Of a stretch of 64,000 nucleotides of DNA, positions 1 to 58,114 are shown in pieces (the first letter of the stretch is position 1; each line of letters begins with the position of its first letter). The DNA comes from Hypomesus transpacificus (taxonomy: Eukaryota > Chordata > Actinopteri > Osmeriformes > Osmeridae). The DNA lies in the NCBI RefSeq assembly GCF_021917145.1, contig NC_061064.1, positions 636,785-700,784 on the forward strand. The letters run 5' to 3'. Below the pieces are notes generated by a model that worked only from the letters and a program-made list of their open reading frames with translations, was not told the origin of the DNA and searched no databases. A program made the position numbers and the translations under genes.

Positions 1-7593
<7,593 letters not shown>

Positions 7594-32341: not shown

Positions 32342-33729
32342 ATGAGTAACAAAACACCCTTATCTGTTACGGATGGTCAGTATTTGTAGTACCTTTTTAG
32401 CTAGTCTAGCTAGTTCATTATTGAAATACCTAGCTAGCTACATTAGCTTCCATTTGTTCAGTCATTGCGCCAAGGACCAACCTAGCAAAACATGTCGCGC
32501 AAATTTAGCCGGCGATTCGTGTCATATTAAAACTATTATATTTCTGTTGTCCAGATACTAATTGTCCGCCCCGAAGACGATCAGCGCGGTTATCTTCCCC
32601 GGGTGAAAACATTGCCAAATCTGTAAGTTTCTATTTGGTGTAAGTAGCTAGCAATATCCACAGCTAGCAAACCTGGCAGACCCTTACAACGGAAAGATTA
32701 TTATTTTCGCTAAACGTTCCCACCACGATGACCATCTCAACAAAATAATCTAGCTCTCAGGTCTCAATCACACATATTGTTAATGTTTTTTTTTTTACAC
32801 TACTTTTGTTAAACGTCCACAGGCTCCTCTGGGTGTTGCGAAACGGTCTATAATTGTAAGGAAGATTGCACCTCGAAAAACGAATGTAAGTGTGACATAA
32901 AATGGTTCAATGACTACTCGTATTCAAAACAAATATTTCCCACCGTCAGAACCAAATTCACAAGAAGGGCGACTTGTCACTAACCCACGCCAAATCATTA
33001 TCTTTCAGGTTGTTCCAGAGGAAAACAAAGAAAATGAACACAGACAATCAGGCGGAAGTCAGCAAAAGAAGACAAAAAAGTCCACACCAGGACCCGCTGA
33101 TGCTCTGCCACCGAAGACTACCGTCCTCTCACCTATCCTGGCCCCGTCGTCACCTTGTCCCCAGGCTCCAGCAGAGCCACAGGACTTGGTATGGTCAAAC
33201 AAGGTGCGTCGATCTTACAGCCGCCTCAGTCAAAGCGACCAGTCATTCGAAAGCTCCTCCCCATCCCCCGGAGGCCGCAGGTCTCTATTTGGCTTTGAGA
33301 AGCTTCAGACCCCAGAGGTGATACGGAAGGTGGAACGTTCCAAAGTGGGCGCTGAGGTTTCCCGGTCACTCTGTAGCCTTCTACAGGCTTCTAGTTCCTC
33401 CACACTGCTGGAAGCAGATGACAGTGCATTGGCCTCCATTGAACCAGATGTAAACATCCCAGGAGTGGCCTTGGTTAAGGTGAAAAAAAGGAGGAAGCGA
33501 GTTCCTCAGCTCAAGGTAAATGAAAGCACCAAGATGCCTTTTCTGTCGTCTGTTGCTTAAGGTCCTCTGTGTATAATCTACTTATTTTCTGTGTAAGTGT
33601 ACCTGAGCGCATGTACTGTATTTACCTGTTCATCTTCCTTCTTATCAGCTTACAGAGGTTGACAGTCTCGCAGCACAGATGAACGCAGAGTTTGAAGAAG
33701 CGGAGGGATTTGAGTTAGTGGTAGAGTGA
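32342..33729 (+). CDS. cdca5: Sororin (CDCA5), cohesin-stabilising factor
   Basis: Five exons: 32342-32375, 32555-32622, 32823-32885, 33009-33515 and 33649-33729 (TGA), giving 250 residues (human 252). Landmarks: a KEN degron at residues 62-64 (EENKENEH), the conserved KVRRSYSRL block at about 120-128, an FGF motif at 149-151 (RSLFGFEKL), a basic patch KVKKRRKR near 213-219, and the C-terminal sororin domain AAQMNAEFEEAEGFELVVE. Sororin binds acetylated cohesin through PDS5 and opposes WAPL from S phase until mitosis. The KEN box serves APC/C-Cdh1 destruction and the FGF motif the PDS5 interaction. All expected elements are intact. Confidence 0.94.
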
Positions 33730-35790: not shown

Positions 35791-35841
35791 TGGGAATCCT
35801 ACACCGAAGCAGTGAACGTTGGTCGCCTGAGAAAGCAGCTG

Positions 35842-38800
35842 ATGATGGAGAAATTCTCCACACCCGTGCCACCTAAACATGGAGCTAAAGGTCAGAAGGT
35901 CAGCAAGCCCAACAAACAAGAGAAGGAGAACAGCAAAAGGGTTAGTCAAAAACCAAACCACCACAAACATGAACCTCACCACCACCACTCTAACCACGGT
36001 CATCATCACCACCACCGTCCCAGCCTCCAGCACCATCAGGACACGCATTCATCAGATGACCAGGATAGTAAAAGGTGAGTTTTGTGAAGAGTTGAAGTAT
36101 TCCTGGTGATACTAGTTGTTTTTATTATGGATCTTATTCATTACAGACCATTTTTTAATATGATTTTTCAAAAACCTTAACTTCAAAAAGGCAAAGAATG
36201 TTTTGATTGTCTTACAAACCCGTATTACTTACAAAACAGTATTTATTAATTAACAACAGAGCGGAAGCAGGGTAAAGTATGATTCTGACTTTATTATTGC
36301 AGAGAACTGAATATTTTACATCATTCTCTTTCGCCATAGCCCCCAATCTAAAACAGAGGACAGCAATGTTCACCCCCATCACCCCAGGCATCCCAATCAC
36401 CCCCACCGTCAGCACCACAGTGAAAAATCTCCCCCTGATCATCACCATCACCATCATCACCATGACGACCATACTCCAGATGTCGGTTCCCACCCTGAGG
36501 TGACGGCCACCTCTTCTAGCTCCTCCTCTAGTTCCTCTGCGTCATCCTCTTCCTCCTCTTCATCCACATCCTCCTCTTCCTCCTCGTCCTCCTCTTCCTC
36601 CTCTGGCTCCTCCTCTTCCTGGTCTTCTCAGTCCAGTATTGACAGTGAGTGTCTGGAGGACAGGAAGCCCCGACAACCTCAGCACTCGCAGTCCTGCACC
36701 GACATCTCCAGGCGGAGGGTCTGTGATGAAGAGGAAGAGGAAGATGACACCATGCCTTTGATAGATGCTGAAGATCTGTTCAACCATTCGGCAAAGGAGA
36801 AAACCAAGAAAGACACATCTTCCCGTCAGCCTCGTTCTCACAGCACCCTGAAGAAAGAGAAAGTGAAAACCAAAGGTTCCTCCGGGGTGGGAAAAGTCCG
36901 CAAGGCCAAGTCAATGGAGGCCCTCTCCCGACACCATGACAAAGAGGCAGGGGACAGCCCTGTAGAGGAGGAGGAACTGGGGAGGAGGGAGGAAGAAGCC
37001 AAGAAGAAACTGGTGAAAGAGAAACTGCAGTTCTCCGCTTTCCTGAATGAGATAACTCGGCAGGTGCTGAGTCCCTCCAGGCTGAGCTATCTGGGGGTCA
37101 CCCAGCCCAACCGCCCCAGTAGCCCAGGCCAGGCCTCCCTGAGGTCCACCAGGGTGGAAAACACAGTGGTGGACAAGACCAGACAGCAGAGAAGCCGTCC
37201 TGCCAGTGGAGACTCACTCACATCCAGCAACCAGTCAACCACCAGCAAGCATTCCCTGGTCAGCAAGCATTCCTATTCCAGCAGGCACTCTCACAGCCAC
37301 CGTGGGAAGCATCAACACCACCACCACCACCACCACCATCAGTCTGGAAGAGAGACTGTTCCAGTCAAGCACCGCAGTCCTAGTAGCCACTCTGATGGCA
37401 GCACCAGTTCAGTAAGTAGCTCCACCCTGAGGCATCATTCTCCATCTGCAACACCTCAGCGTTCCCGTTCTCCGTCTCAGCATCACCAGCATCACCACGG
37501 AGACCACCACAGCCCAACTCATCATCATCACCACGGAGACCACCACAGCCCAACTCATCATCATCACCATGGAGACCACCACAGCCCAACTCATCATCAT
37601 CACCATGGAGACCACCACAGCCCAACTCATCATCATCACCATGGCGAGCACCACAGTCCATCTCGTCACCATCATCGTGGAGACCACCACAGCCCAACCC
37701 ATCACCATCACCATGGAGACCACCACAGTCCATCTCGTCACCAACACCATGGAGACCACCACAGTCCAACTCATCACCATGGCGACCACCACAGTTCAAC
37801 TCATCACCATCACCATGGAAGCCACCACGGTTCAACAAATCTCCATGGAGACCACCATAGCACAACTCCTGACCATCACCATGGAGATCAGAACAGCCCA
37901 ACTCATCAGCATCACCATGGAGACCACCACAGCCCACTTCCTCACCATCCCCATGGAGACCACCACAATTCAACTCATCACCTTGGAGACCACCATAGCC
38001 CAACTCCTGACCATCACCATGGAGACCACCACAGCCCAACTCATCAGCATCACCATGAAGACCACCACAGTCCAACTCCTCACCATCACCATGGAGACCA
38101 CGACAGTTCAACTCATCATCTTGGAGACCAGCTCAGCCCAACTCCTCACCATCACCATGGAGACCACCACAGCCCAACTCATCAGCATCACCATGAAGAC
38201 CACCACAGCTCAACTCATCACCATCACCATGGAGACTACCACAGTCCAGCTCATCACCATCACTCTCGAGACCACCATAGCCCATCCTCGCACCATCACC
38301 ATCGGGGCAACCACAGTCCAACTCATCACCATGGAGACCACAGCCCAACTACTGACCACCACCATGGAGACCACCAAAGCCCAGATCATCACAATCACCA
38401 TGAAGACCACCACAGTCCAACTCATCACCATCCCCATGGACACCACCACAGCCCAACCCATCACCATGGTGACCACCACAGTTTAACTCATCACCATAAA
38501 GAATCCCATCATTCCTCTCCCGCAGAAGCCCATCACCACGCTTACTCCCCCACCAACTCCGAGAACCACCACTCCCATCACCCTGAATCTCCTCACAACC
38601 CAACTCATGCCTCACTTGCAACGCAACACCACTCCCACCAACATGACGATCACCACAGTCCAACTCACCACCATCACCATGACGATCACCACAGTCCAAC
38701 TCACCACCATCACCATGACGATCACCACCAACTGGCAGCACTCATCATGAAGCCAGGCTCTTCCAGCTCCTCCAGTCAGGACGAGCAGCAGGCCAGCTGC

Positions 38801-41468
38801 AGAGGCTCTGCTTCATCATTACATAAGGTAGAGCTGGCATCAAACTCAATATACATTTGTGTTCCTTCTTTAAATATTGACAACCTATTATTGATTTTGA
38901 TATTGCACACGCAGGCATGTATTTACGCAATCCTGGCGTGTGACAGTAGCTTTTTTATTGGTTATCCATATTTAATTTACTTTGTGTTTGAATTGGTTCT
39001 AGAATCGATCTCAGTTTGTTAATTTCATATTATGTCTTGTTTTTCAGACACAGGATAAAGCCTCTGAGATAAAAGGAATAATGTAAGTTTGTTTTAAATC
39101 ATTAATCTTTATTTGTCTGGGTCTGGCCAATTAAATAAAGTAAGAACAAATGATTTAACATTCATCACCTCAGGGGTTCACTGGAGTGCACAGCAGCGAC
39201 TCACAAAAGTCATTTTCTCGTCCCTCCTTCCTCTCAGGATGCTTCAGGAGCAAAACCAGGAGCTGCATCACAGTCTTCTGCAGACGGCCATGAGGATGGA
39301 GTGCATGGGAGAGGAGTTCAAGAGCAGTCACGAGCTCCTGGAGTCAGAACTGCAGAGGACCCACGTGGAGCTGAGCAGCCTGCTAGATAAATTCAAAAGG
39401 TCAGAGCTCAGTGGAGGGAATAGCTTAGTGGTTAGAGCATTTGATTGTAGATCAAGAGGTCACAGGTTAATCACTGTTGCATTATATGAAAAAAGTGGAC
39501 TAAATTAATCTTTTTTTTACTATTATTATCAAAGTGAACTATAGATGTAACAGCATAGATAAAACACATAAGAGTTTTGAGACAAGAATCAATGCAGCAA
39601 ACCAGTACTGTCATAAAATACCACAATATTACTTCAGATGTACTTTGTTGTCCCTAACACATTGCCTGTCTGTCTGCATCCACAGACTCCAGGATAACTA
39701 TTCCTCCACCCAACAGACCAACAATCTCCTGGAGCGTAAACTGCATTCAGTGGTGAGCCAGCAGTGAATCATTTTCTTTATTCATATCTCCAGATTTCCC
39801 ATCATGTAAATCAGTTCTTTCCGTGGAACCCTGTATAATCTGTGAAGTTTCCTTCCGTGGAACATGGTTTCTTATGTGAAACCGACTCTATTTTAGGAAC
39901 CGGTTCTCCCTGTGAAGTTTCCCTCCGTGTGTTCTGCAGGCTCAGAACATGGATGGGGAACGTGAGCGTCTCAATCAGCGCATCTTGGTCCTCACGGATC
40001 AGCTGGCCAAAGCCAGGATCACCATCCACAGCATGGAGAGCATACACGTGAGAACGCCCTCCCCTCCTCCTGACCAACACAGCTAGCTGAAACAAGAGAC
40101 AACCCAGAACGCGTGGAGCGGCAAAGTACAAAGACACACACACACACAGTAGATGTTAGTTAACAGCAAAACGAGTTGAAGTGATGGAACCTGTGATCCT
40201 GGCCTGCTTGTCTTTGTCGACTGTTGAACTGTTGATTGGCTTATTGAAAATCAAATCGGATTAATTTGATTTCAGATGGAGTCTGGGTGGTCACACTGTT
40301 GACAATCTGTTGTGGTTTGACCTTTTCTGGTCAAATGATGAGTGAATGCACTGTGTTGCTTTGCACTGTGCCTGGTAAATACAGACTGTTCCTTGATTCT
40401 AACCACCAAAACACTGTTATAACTACACTCTGATGCTTGAAGGGTCCCACTTTGTATGTGCACTATTTGTATGTCGCTTTGGATAAAGGCGTGAGCTAAA
40501 TGAATAAAATGTTAACTGTAATGAATGGATTTATCCCCCCTCCCCCTTAGGTAACGCCAGTCCTGCAGGAAGCCCTTGAAAAGCATTTCCAGTCCGATTC
40601 CATCAATCAATTTGTCATCCCTGTGGCCCCTCCTCCACCTCAGTTCATGGACGGCCGTAACTATGGAAAGGTCATGGCGATGGGCGAGGACCAATACCTG
40701 GGACCTGTTCCAGAGGAAGAGGAGTCTGATTGGTCAGAAATGGGGGAAGAGGCTCCTCGGTGTGGGTTGCGGGGGTCAGGTGTTGGTTTCCATGGGAACA
40801 CCGCATTTTTACCCTGGAGGCAGGCGCAAGGCCACTGGGCGGGTCAGGGGGAGGGCGACACTGACAGCGAGTCTGGGAGTGAAGATGTCGTCAAACAAAA
40901 CCCTCCGACCTCCCTGAAGATACCACACCTCCAGTTCACCATGCACCCTGAGAGTGCCCCAGGCCCAGGGACGGAGGGGTGCTCCGCCGGCTCCAACAGC
41001 CCGCCCGCCAGTCTGAAATGCGAGGGAGGGTACAGGGTCTCCACCATCCGACGACTAGGCTCCCCTGTCCGCGTGCTGTCGGCCAGCCTGGAGGAGATCT
41101 CCATGGGCAGAGCCCCACATCACCGCCCGGGGGAGCAGGGCCTGCTGAGGGGCACGGAGGCCATGCTGGACCTCCACCACCCCGAGGAAGGAGCCATGGA
41201 AGACTTTGACGACGACGAGATCATCCACAACTGGAGGACCAGGGGAGACCGGGGCCTGGGGGGAGAGGGAGGGCTGGAGGTCAGGGAGGCGGAGGACGGG
41301 ACCAACCTAGTCAGCCTGCAGTCGGCCCAGAGGATGCTCAACCACTTCATCTCCCAGCTGCAGCCCGGGGAGGGGGGCGGGGAGGAGCGGGGCCGGGGGG
41401 GGGAGGAGTGCGGCTGGATAGGGGGAGTCTCAGACGAGGTGTTGAACGGGGAGAGGACGCAGCTGTGA
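35842..41468 (+). CDS. TJAP1/BEGAIN-family coiled-coil protein with giant histidine-rich repeat region
   Basis: Seven exons: from 35791 (coding from ATG 35842) to 36074, then 36340-38827, 39048-39082, 39238-39399, 39686-39752, 39940-40047 and 40551-41468 (TGA). Phases chain perfectly, giving about 1336 residues. In order: His-rich segment (about 30-65), poly-Ser (about 135-176), acidic/basic linker, a non-repetitive island FSAFLNEITRQVLSP (about 305-330), His-rich tandem repeats (about 465-798 and 846-875), coiled coil (about 919-1031), acidic tail, C-terminus GERTQL. The coiled coil aligns by eye with TJAP1 and BEGAIN (LLESELQRTHVEL, DKFKRLQDNY, TNNLLERKLHS). TJAP1 is a junction/Golgi protein and BEGAIN a PSD-95-binding synaptic protein, so a scaffold role is inferred. 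The start is uncertain: the frame stays open to 35791. No established name is recognised. Confidence 0.8.
36509..36630 (+). repeat. poly-serine coding run
   Basis: About 40 residues, almost all serine, encoded by mixed TCC/TCT/AGC/TCA codons, immediately before SSIDSECLED in the histidine-rich gene. The codon mixing suggests the tract is kept as protein rather than being a fresh slippage product. Confidence 0.85.
37499..38500 (+). repeat. in-frame histidine-rich tandem repeats, about 29 units
   Basis: Protein unit GDHHSPTHHHHH (36 nt) or the shorter GDHHSPTHHH (30 nt), with variants GDHHSPTHQHHH, EDHHSPTPHHHH, GDHHSPTPDHHH, GEHHSPSRHHHR and GNHSPTHHH. Units differ mostly by substitutions, with lengths almost always a multiple of 3. 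DNA core GGAGACCACCACAGCCCAAC. The large ORFs in the other frames over this block are by-products of the repeat. Confidence 0.95.
38643..38731 (+). repeat. second block of histidine-rich repeats
   Basis: Three further units of DDHHSPTHHHHH type (the last cut short to DDHHQL), separated from the main array by a less regular His/Ser/Pro spacer. The first two are nearly identical at DNA level, suggesting a recent duplication. Confidence 0.9.
39411..39480 (+). repeat. tRNA-derived SINE head
   Basis: ATAGCTTAGTGGTTAGAGCA, then TAGATCAAGAGGTCACAGG and TTAATC. It begins only about 12 nt after the splice donor at 39399/39400 in the histidine-rich gene. Confidence 0.65.
40360..40522 (+). repeat. SINE body and tail
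   Basis: Contains GCCTGGTAAATACAGACT, TTCCTTGATT, TGCACTATTTGTATGTCGC and TTTGGATAAAGGCGTGAGC plus a TAAATGAATAAAATG tail. Related to copies at 51855-51985 and 63590-63690. It ends about 28 nt before the acceptor of exon 40551-41468. Confidence 0.65.
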
Positions 41469-44749: not shown

Positions 44750-47700
44750 ATGGTGCTGATGAAGATGGCGTTTCCCTTTGAGAAGAGGGTGAAGCTGGCC
44801 CAGGGGCTGTGGCTGCTGTCCTGGTTCGCCACCCTGGCTGGAGCCTTAACCTTCACACTGGGATGCTTCCTTAAGACGGAACTACGCCGGAGGGCGGAGG
44901 TACCCTGCAAACTCTCACACACATTTACAAACACACTAAGAAATGTACGGACACGTGCCATTAAAAATGTACAGACTCACACCTGTACACGCGTAGCACA
45001 CACTCAAACACAGACTCACACACAAACTTCTAGACTTGAAAATACTTCAGGGGTCTAGTCTGTGTTTTAGGAGTACTCCCATGTGGTACTGTACCTCAAG
45101 TACATCAAATATTCAGAATCTCGTCTTCTATTTGAGTTCTGAATCTCAGTACTGGAATTGTCTGAAAGTCCTCTGCAATATTTTATGAGATTTGAAAAGC
45201 ACTTTTGTTGTTTGTTTAGTTTCTCTTCAGACAATGAAGCGCATTGGGAAATAAGTTTCACAAAGCGCAGTGTTTATGCTGAATAGATATGAAAGGGAGA
45301 CAACTGATCTCCTTGTGCCTGTGAGAATATGATGCACAGAGTGATAATAGGGATTAGATGGGAGTCAGATGGCTGAGTGGTGAGGGAGTCGGGCTAGTAA
45401 TCAGAAGGTTGCCGGATCGATTCCCCGCCCCGCCAATATGACGTTGTGTCCTTGGGCAAGGCACTTCACCCTACTTGCCTCGGGGGGAATGTCCCTGTAC
45501 TTACTGTAAGTCGCTCTGGATAAGAGCGTCTGCTAAATGACTAAATGTAAATGTAGATGGCTGAGCGGTTAGGGAGTCGGACTATTAATCAGAAGGTTGT
45601 TGGTTCGATTTCCGGCTGTGCAAAATGACGATGTGTCGTTAGGCAAGACACTTCACCCTACTTGCCTCGGGGGGGAATGTCTCTGTACTTACTGTAAGTC
45701 AATGACTAAATGTAATGTAATTAGGAACAATCTTGGAAATGAATTAACCTAAATGAAATGATCAGGTGACTAATGGCTAATCCAACCAATGGTGCATTGG
45801 ACTTCTAGGCAGCCATGAGTACAAGAATAACTAGCCATGGGGCCCCATCGACCTGTACACGTGTGACATAAACTGAAACACTGTGTCTGTGCATGGATCA
45901 AGATGATGAATTGTTGAAACTGTGTGGTCTTTAGAGAGGGTAGACAGCCTGAGCTGTTGGATGTGACTCATGATTCATCTAAACCCTTCTCCGCAATTCA
46001 TAATGTCTAATCGTTACCAACACAATTCCACTGAGCTTTTCGATTTCACTCCCTCGTCTATTACAGTCCTGACAAAAAAATATGAAAAAGAAATGACATC
46101 GAGATTATTGCATTGATAATGTGACACGTTTTGCTCAAAGGGGGTATTTTGCGAGCACGTTCTGGGATACTGAATCAAATAATGAGAGGTGGGAACGTCG
46201 TCGTGCAGTTTTGACGCATAACCAATGCATAGCGTCTGTCTACAGGTGATGGATAACACCGAGATCCACGCTGTGCCCAACACCCTCATGATTGTGGGCC
46301 TGGCGTCTCTGGGCATCAACTACTTTGCTGGCCGCATCTGTCAGGTGAGGGGAAATCTTTGCCTTGCCCTGGACTCCAAGTCACGTGCAGGTGAAGATAC
46401 AGGCCTCATCTGATCTGTTCAGGTTTGGGGCTTGAGATGGATCCAGACCTCTGACAGTAAAGGAATGCTGTTTTTATGGAGAATAACTGATTGAAGTTGA
46501 TCAATTTCTTAACCAAAATGCTTATTATTTAATGTATTTTCTATGTTCAAGTACATCCTTTTATGTAACACTGATATTTGTCAGAGAAGTGACATCACAC
46601 CATTGCTGTGAGCCTTCTCTCCATGCTTGATTAAACTCTAAATGATCTCACCACTGTATCCACTGAGTCTTGAACATCATTGAACCCCGACAGGACGCCC
46701 TGGACGCCGGTCGATTCCCGCGCTGGAAGAGCTTCCTGCAGCCGTTTTTCGGCGTGTCTATTTTCTTCAGCTTCCTCATGTTGATGGCAGTGATCATGAG
46801 CTACGCCATGAAGGGCAACCTGGAATCCTCCCTGAAGATAGGCCTGAAGAACGGCATCCGCTTCTACAAGGACACCGACACCCCCGGAAGATGCTTCCAG
46901 AAGCAGACCATCGACCGGCTGCAGATGGAGTTCCGTTGCTGTGGGAACAATGACTACAGGGACTGGTTCGAGGTCCAGTGGATTAGCAACCGGTACCTGG
47001 ACTTCAGCTCCAAGGAAGTGAAGGAGTGAGTGAAGCATGAAGGAGGAGGATGGGAAAGGCAGCGGGGGGGAGGAAGGGGGGCTGGGGTGGAGTGAAGTTG
47101 TGAACTCTCCTCTCCTTTTTTTCCTCCCCTTCTCTTCCTCTCCATCTCTTTCCTCCTCTTTCTGTCTTCCTCTCCATCTCTTTCCTCCTCTTTCTGTCTT
47201 CCTCTCCATCTCTTTCCTCCTCTTTCTGTCTTCCTCTCCAGCCGCATCAAGAGCAACGTGGACGGCCGCTACCTTGTGGATGGGGTCCCGTTCAGCTGCT
47301 GCAATCCCAGCTCCCCTCGGCCCTGCATCCAGAACCGGCTCACCAACAACTCAGCCCACTACAACTACGAACACCAGACCGAGGAGCTCAACCTCTACAT
47401 CCGAGGCTGCAGGGAGGCCCTGGTCAACTACTACATGGGCCTGATGAACACCATTGGGGCTGTGGTGCTGTCTGTCTTCCTGATTCAGGTACTGTGCAGT
47501 CATTAGACAGGGTGTGAAAGTAGATGTGGTCTTGTGTGGTACTGTGAGGTTTAAGGGATGTTCAGGCTGGACATCTGGATTGGCTGATGTTTGAGTGGTG
47601 GCGATTTCAAAGTAAGGTTGTGTGAGGTTCGATTTTGAGATATATGTCCTACGTGTGTTCAATCTCTTCATCCTCCCTTTTCCTCCTCAATGTCTTCCTC

Positions 47701-48187
47701 CTCTCACCCCACCTCCTCTTCTTCCTCCACCTCTTCTACATTTCCATTTATTTCCCCTCCCCTTCTCCTCCCTTGATCATTTTTCTATTCCACCTTCTCC
47801 TCCTTCTTCTTCCTCCCTCCCCTCCTCCTCCTCCTTCCTCCCTCCTCCCCTCCTCCTCTACCTCTTCCTCCCTCCCTCCCCTCCTCCTCCTCCACCTCTT
47901 CCTCTTCTTCCCTCCCCTCCTCCTCCTCCTCCCTCCCTCCTCTACCTCCTCTTCCTCCTCCTCCTCTCCAGGCGTCTGTGATCGTGAGCCTGCGGTACCT
48001 GCAGACTTCCATGGAGGCCGTGGCTGGGCAGGAGAACACGGAGATTGAGACCGAGGGCTACCTGCTGGAGAAAGGGCTGAAGGAGACCTTCATGGAGTAC
48101 ATGAACCCCGTGCTGACCCTCCTCATGCTCAACCAGGTGTCCAGCGAAGAAGGGGCGGGCGGGGTGGAGGCTGGGACTAGCAGCTAA
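44750..48187 (+). CDS. Peripherin-2/ROM1-family photoreceptor disc-rim tetraspanin
   Basis: Five coding exons: 44750-44899, 46246-46344, 46694-47025, 47242-47488 and 47972-48187 (TAA), giving 347 residues (human PRPH2 346). Membrane segments at about 17-42, 62-82, 97-121 and 256-283. The large intradiscal loop holds the diagnostic CCG ([11 protein letters not shown]), [19 protein letters not shown] and [18 protein letters not shown]. Cys150 (PGRC), the covalent dimerisation residue, is present, as is the N229-N-S sequon of PRPH2. The tail [10 protein letters not shown] is closer to ROM1 (GYLFPSGLKD). These proteins shape rod and cone disc rims. Neighbours cdca5 and rps6ka4 favour rom1, but the loop is PRPH2-like, so rom1 versus prph2-like is left open. 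Human PRPH2 encodes exons 1-3 here as one 581-nt exon. Confidence 0.92.
45364..45555 (+). repeat. tRNA-derived SINE, full length
   Basis: GATGGCTGAGTGGTGAGGGA, GGGCTAGTAATCAGAAGGTT, GCCGGATCGATTCC, then TTGGGCAAGGCACTTCACCC and TACTGTAAGTCGCTCTGGAT, ending in the GTCTGCTAAATGACTAAATG tail. Lies in intron 1 of the tetraspanin gene. Confidence 0.9.
45556..45722 (+). repeat. tRNA-derived SINE, second copy in tandem
   Basis: Begins where the preceding copy ends, in the same orientation (AGATGGCTGAGCGGTTAGGG and following). Its tail lacks the CGCTCTGGATAAGAGCGTCTG segment (internal deletion). Confidence 0.85.
47126..47239 (+). repeat. pyrimidine minisatellite at splice acceptor
   Basis: About three copies of a 32-nt unit (TCTGTCTTCCTCTCCATCTC onward) ending directly at the CCAG acceptor of tetraspanin exon 47242-47488. 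Confidence 0.85.
47690..47968 (+). repeat. CCTCCT pyrimidine tract at splice acceptor
   Basis: About 280 nt of CCTCCTCCT/TCTTCC repeats running into the acceptor of the last tetraspanin exon (47972). Confidence 0.85.
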
Positions 48188-48270
48188 AGAAGAAATGTCT
48201 AGAGGGTTCCAACAGGTTGTCAAGGGGACACAGATGGCACGGTTGACAGTCTGCACTTGGCAACACAGTA

Positions 48271-51141: not shown

Positions 51142-58114
<6,973 letters not shown>

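Follow-up and report, generated by a model that had tools for sequence, protein, structure and literature searches.

Whether the stretch at 35842-41468 encodes one protein that joins a histidine-rich N-terminus to a coiled coil, and how such a protein is related to TJAP1 and BEGAIN, are the two questions raised by this locus. The window, i.e. the whole stretch of DNA that was analyzed, covers 64 kb of the 437-Mb genome of Hypomesus transpacificus (C5:636785-700784). In the initial annotation, seven phase-consistent exons were proposed, and this gene model holds, with exons at 35842-36074, 36340-38827, 39048-39082, 39238-39399, 39686-39752, 39940-40047 and 40551-41468. Joined, they form a continuous reading frame of 1,336 aa closed by one stop at its end, GT...AG ends are present in six of the six introns, and the previously named exon edges at 38827, 39048, 39082 and 39238 are correct by splice and frame check. 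Across 36620-37470, a part without repeats, the gene frame is free of stops, versus 4-13 in the other five frames. Relatives in the same genome are denoted below by their contigs: C11 (tjap1), C3 and C26 (presumably begain-type genes) and C1 (a sister copy of the window gene). The parts of the window gene are as follows.

35791..36074, plus strand: first coding exon, with acceptor 35790/35791, ATG at 35842 (or 35845) and a His-rich end
36340..38827, plus strand: giant exon with His tracts, Ser-rich run, helix motif and 12-residue His array, ending at a phase-0 donor after ...LHK
36512..36625 (approximate bounds), plus strand: Ser-rich run that ends SSSSWS, 35 Ser in 40 residues
37013..37105, plus strand: conserved helix motif VKEKLQFSAFLNEITRQVLSPSRLSYLGVTQ, from tblastn of tjap1 against the window, C3, C26 and C1
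37469..38731, plus strand: tandem array of 12-residue His units HHHHHGDHHSPT, residues 455-875, 192 His in 421 residues
39048..39082, plus strand: mini-exon TQDKASEIKGIM, 35 nt
39238..39399, plus strand: coil exon 1, 162 nt, equal in tjap1 and the two begain-type genes, 129 nt in C1
39686..39752, plus strand: coil exon 2, 67 nt, equal in tjap1, the two begain-type genes and C1
39940..40047, plus strand: coil exon 3, 108 nt, equal in tjap1, the two begain-type genes and C1
40551..41468, plus strand: tail exon, 305 aa, ending RTQL, without the Pilt domain

No stop interrupts the frame between the acceptor and the ATG of the first coding exon, and the C1 counterpart of this exon is also preceded by ...CCCAG, with its ATG two bases inside. 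A non-coding 5' UTR exon upstream of 35791 is therefore likely, and the protein start at ATG 35842 is provisional. The giant exon is not a clean cassette because its skipping shifts the frame. The intron after coil exon 1 holds a tRNA-like stretch at 39414-39484 (Rfam tRNA, 32.7 bits, E 0.0059), at which ARAGORN predicted no tRNA gene; it is probably a tRNA-derived SINE.

The coil had been assigned to the TJAP1/BEGAIN type, and the comparison with the relatives bears this out. It was aligned without gaps over 113 residues to the coil of the tjap1 gene of the same genome with 36% identity (E 3e-25 in a 3-sequence comparison), and introns cut it into 162/67/108 nt in the window, C11, C3 and C26 alike. 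The C11 gene was found by a genome search with the window coil. It is tjap1 by the Pfam Pilt domain (PF15453) in its tail (E 4.9e-155, 516.7 bits), and its N-terminus KPYRKAPPQHRETR supports this identity when set against residues 9-22 of human TJAP1, KPYRKAPPEHRELR, which the excerpted text of PMC10820826 gives as the Mint PTB-binding peptide near the N-terminus. The same excerpts describe three parts of TJAP1: an N-terminus without structure, a coil for which AlphaFold2 predicts homodimerisation, and a C-terminus rich in proline. The protein binds the Mint1 PTB domain with a Kd of 20.9 uM and is reported to bind ARF6 and Dlg2 (PMC10820826). A genome search with the tjap1 coil revealed further relatives on C26 and C3, a lone fragment on C9 and a match on C8 (E 0.04). 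The C26 and C3 genes are taken by us to be begain-type from the BEGAIN C-terminus; Pfam gave no family for the C26 tail. The fragment at C9:13034677-13034796 is a lone piece of a tjap1-like coil exon, matching at 78%, and at 91% over 34 aa in a second comparison. It sits among frames that resemble transposase and reverse transcriptase (labelled by eye), and neither other family exons nor the FSxFLxE motif described below (tblastn) were matched in the 40 kb around it.

C1 carries another gene like that of the window, beside a copy of the tetraspanin gene of the window and in the same order and orientation. Its first-exon stretch GKRQVMEKFFTPV aligns with RKQLMMEKFSTPV of the window over 12 residues, at an E of only 0.23. 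Its long frame of 534 aa contains His tracts, a Ser run and then QFSAFLDEITRQVISPSRL (E 6e-9), an order identical to that in the window gene. Coil exons 1 and 2 match those of the window with E values of 1e-5 and 2e-6, and the best tblastn piece between the tail exons has an E of 0.091, with aligned islands EKH, TAFLPW(R/K)Q and SAQR(M/I)L. Identity between the two coils is 44% (111 aligned columns, 12 gaps). The coil exons of C1 measure 129/67/108 nt, with an in-frame loss of 33 nt from the first, and thus the coil is not under absolute constraint. A total of 47 His were counted in the 534 residues of the long frame, including two runs of six. Three words of the array had no matches there, versus 30 in the window protein, and the 12-residue array appears to be limited to the window copy of the two sister genes.

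The FSxFLxE motif lies N-terminal to the coil in all five family genes with the coil cassette (window, C11, C26, C3 and C1). The long exons of the window gene, C1 and tjap1 share the islands RK(A/T)KS(M/A)E(A/V/M)L and (Q/K)FSxFLxEITxQV(L/I)SPSxL, and SSSWS follows the Ser-rich part in all three (SSSSWS in the window and C1). The window gene is thus like TJAP1 in its coil, its 162/67/108 coil exons and its long N-terminal exon with SSSWS, RKxKSxExL and FSxFLxEITxQVLSPSxL, and like BEGAIN (C3 and C26) in the coil, the same exon lengths and the LKFSxFLDEV motif. A genome search with 63 motif-region residues returned the window, C1, C11, C26 (E 0.28) and a weak match at C22:12596609-12596767 (E 0.47), the last possibly by chance. 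The motif of C3 is surrounded by an open frame of 623 aa. That of C26 lies in an open frame of 76 aa only, with stops around it; introns may divide this copy, or it may have decayed. AlphaFold2, run on 91 residues as a single sequence, predicted a helix over residues 24-59 followed by a short helix (block pLDDT 92-98 for residues 31-60 and 73 before; mean pLDDT 74.6, pTM 0.43). A PDB sequence search with the coil and the motif returned nothing meaningful (best E 0.92 and 9.3). The motif seems to belong to the ancestral make-up of the family and not to be the oddity of one gene. Both C1 and tjap1 carry KGILK, which we take to resemble a PP1-docking motif, upstream of their helix motif. PP1 docking through KGILK upstream of KLxF was considered and dropped, as KGILK is absent from the window protein.

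With these relatives at hand, the possibility was weighed that the locus comprises two unrelated genes, a His-rich one at 35842-38827 and a coil gene at 39238-41468. The two halves do differ strongly in composition, and no convincing counterpart of the linking 35-nt mini-exon was found between long exon and coil in tjap1 or C1. However, the KPYRKAPP... peptide and the helix motif of tjap1 are encoded in one exon, upstream of the coil exons and in the same orientation, C1 repeats the order of the parts, and the window gene, C1 and tjap1 all close the long exon with a phase-0 donor that follows a K. We consider two genes very improbable and treat the locus as one.

The relationships within the family were examined from the coils of this genome. 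The window coil is 35.7% identical to tjap1, 31.2% to C3 and 34.8% to C26, and the tjap1 coil is 45.5% identical to C3 and 50.0% to C26; the two begain-type coils share 83.9%. A maximum-likelihood tree was built from the coils of the five genes under LG+G4 (200 bootstraps, 113 columns, unrooted). The window gene and C1 stand apart in it from tjap1 and the begain-type pair, with support of 100 at both inner branches. The Pilt domain (Pfam) and the Mint-binding KPYRK peptide of TJAP1 are missing from the window protein. So is the RKDSL of the C-terminus RKDSLT(R/K)AQ, which is found in C11, C26 and C3 (RKDSLTKAQ in both begain-type genes). The post-coil exon, RYRQDCNLA in tjap1 and LYRKDCNLA in the begain-type genes, is present in C11, C26 and C3 and missing from the window gene, and no remnant of it was seen by eye in three frames of the window intron 40048-40550. 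Because these four features are absent, the window gene is neither TJAP1 nor BEGAIN, and judging by sequence it constitutes with C1 a third branch of the family. The junctional or synaptic role suggested initially is hypothetical, and the features through which the protein would be linked to Mint, a known partner of TJAP1, or to the C-termini of TJAP1 and BEGAIN are among those missing.

Pfam detected no family above the cut-off in the coil plus tail, the first exon or the middle of the window protein, and the best match below it was NUDE_C (E 0.0035, 18.3 bits versus 30.9 needed). The window tail and the C1 tail had no Pfam family at E<=0.01 in a run with the tjap1 of this genome as positive control, through which alone the null is informative for the window tail. 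Between the window tail and the tjap1 tail there was no detectable similarity (best E 2.5). A third TJAP1/BEGAIN paralogue was not seen among the PMC open titles and abstract starts listed, and one may be annotated elsewhere; two papers in that library name TJAP1 and BEGAIN together.

Fish often keep two copies of a gene after duplication. The window gene might accordingly be a fast-evolving extra copy of tjap1 or begain from the fish genome duplication and not a third branch. Rate effects are possible with a coil only 31-36% identical to the others, and the tree is short and unrooted. Nevertheless, the begain-type genes already form a pair (83.9% between their coils), the window gene and C1 are themselves a pair, separated from the remaining three at 100% bootstrap, and the window gene is devoid of the Pilt domain. 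An extra copy of this kind is quite unlikely in our view, and a third early-vertebrate paralogue is favoured.

The neighbourhood of the gene bears on its origin. A family was assigned by Pfam to three of the seven window frames searched (sororin, tetraspanin and protein kinase), and two copies of a LINE element were annotated by Rfam.

32901-33560: middle region of sororin (CDCA5), Pfam 1.1e-13
44750-48200: tetraspanin gene, N-terminal coding part at about 44750-44900, Pfam Tetraspanin at 46667-47029 (1.1e-12)
55824-56753: protein kinase exons, Pfam 2.6e-31
3361-3414, minus strand: UnaL2 LINE 3' element, Rfam, 64.9 bits
45493-45546, plus strand: UnaL2 LINE 3' element, Rfam, 64.9 bits

The tetraspanin is presumably of the peripherin/ROM1 type and the kinase presumably of the MSK type. 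Together with the paired begain-type genes and the pairing of the window gene and its tetraspanin neighbour with C1, this content indicates a vertebrate and probably a teleost genome. The tetraspanin copy on C1 is 77% identical to that of the window over query residues 35-105 and 53% over residues 1-49. The closest kinase paralogue in this genome, among the 150 of 352 candidates scored, is located on C3 at 4.67 Mb, with pieces of 65 and 71%. C3 also carries its begain-type gene at 13.18 Mb and a tetraspanin paralogue at 2.30 Mb (53%); no tetraspanin match was found on the tjap1 contig, C11. Since the same three families occur on C3 and within the 64-kb window, paralogous segments are suggested, and this is suggestive only, the members on C3 being megabases apart. 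In the viral contigs, two pattern matches were obtained and neither was confirmed. A further-reaching proposal, rather doubtful and offered tentatively, is that the gene is a forgotten third ancient paralogue of TJAP1/BEGAIN on a segment with an MSK-type kinase, a peripherin-type tetraspanin and sororin, perhaps lost from mammals judging by their gene maps, in which the disordered arm of the family would have become a condensing arm, rich in His and switched by pH or metal, on a dimeric scaffold.

The N-terminal arm is the most unusual part of the protein. The huge His-rich N-terminus of the initial annotation is confirmed by 269 His in 1,336 residues, 251 of them within residues 1-907. The serine run of 40 residues noted there is indeed a Ser-rich stretch, but not an uninterrupted one (35 Ser in the best 40, longest pure run 12). 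It had also been claimed that this N-terminus is without parallel in TJAP1 and BEGAIN, which is right for the His content and the 12-residue array. For the long arm as such it is not, as the N-terminal exon of tjap1 encodes 505 aa and the C3 frame 623 aa; in the C1 sister, too, there are His tracts, a Ser run and the motif, arranged as in the window gene. The long exon of tjap1 is far poorer in His (23 in 505 residues), and a short His tract, HYHHHHRHHHQQ, occurs in tjap1 too. Repeats of Ser, Gly and Leu abound in the C3 frame, in contrast to the His of the window arm. As far as these sequences tell, the novelty of the window gene is not the long N-terminal exon but the His load and the 12-residue array.

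The array was split here into 34 pieces, 22 of which have exactly 12 residues. Tandem Repeats Finder reported 36 nt x 28.3 copies, plus a second array of 2.6 copies. All 98 occurrences of six repeat words keep one codon phase per word, and the spacings between GA[CT]CACCA copies are multiples of three in 23 of 23 cases. Comparison of the 22 twelve-residue units gave a pN/pS of 0.46 for the gene frame, versus 0.68-2.03 for the other five frames. Under a random-placement model, 32 synonymous changes were observed against 21.4 expected when all changes were counted (P=0.0017), and 14 of 54 against 11.9 expected when distinct changes were counted once (P=0.24). Selection on the units themselves is weakly supported in view of the latter value. 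The array may therefore be a neutral in-frame minisatellite without a role of its own, with the helix motif and coil alone mattering. We hold this to be a real possibility, though not the one we would choose. It fits the absence of the array words from C1 and the weak signal of selection. On the other side stand the ratio of 0.46 and the shorter upstream His tracts, which are present in C1 too; the constant phase and spacing also count against it, although by themselves they show only that the frame was kept.

Clustered His-rich repeats are found in histidine-rich glycoprotein and other His-repeat proteins. The window protein shares such repeats with them and differs from histidine-rich glycoprotein in its TJAP1-type coil; the likeness is one of repeats, without a claim of homology. 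The net charge of residues 1-907, computed from textbook pK values (His 6.0), is -13.8 at pH 7.4, -0.3 at pH 7.0 and +103 at pH 6.0. Because the arm passes from near neutral to strongly positive, sensitivity to pH or metal is plausible, as judged from computed charge.

His tracts allow a different reading, in which 8-His tracts direct the protein to nuclear speckles and the gene acts in the nucleus and not at membranes. The window protein has two runs of eight His, i.e. a homopolymeric tract of at least five is present, and C1 has two runs of six. A repeat of six His was sufficient to send a heterologous protein to speckles, paralogues without the repeat do not reach them, and such repeats were proposed both as speckle signals and as a means of diversifying gene duplicates, according to the excerpted text of Salichs 2009 (PMC2644819). 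Accumulation was reported there, however, for 15 of 22 nuclear proteins, and TJAP1 is reported at the Golgi and tight junctions (PMC10820826), more precisely at the cis-Golgi in the excerpts of PMC13305319. A speckle protein is unlikely on this balance.

We are reasonably confident that the locus is one intact gene of the third TJAP1/BEGAIN branch, most likely encoding, by analogy with TJAP1, a dimeric intracellular scaffold. The 113-residue coil would pair two chains. The N-terminal helix KLQFSAFLNEITRQVLSPSRL would dock a partner common to the family, and among the parts of the protein it is the strongest candidate for a docking site. The His/Ser-rich arm would form an extended multivalent segment. 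With a computed charge close to zero at pH 7 and strongly positive at about pH 6, it could attract acidic partners, take up divalent metal ions or aid clustering. The His tracts and Ser run predate the split of the window and C1 copies, and afterwards either the window copy gained the 12-residue array or C1 lost it.

The TJAP1/BEGAIN scaffold family of this genome thus appears to have a third branch. The helix motif N-terminal to the coil offers a concrete, testable candidate docking site, and the His-rich arm may serve as a natural experiment, in which a disordered arm was recomposed wholesale and the motif and coil were kept.
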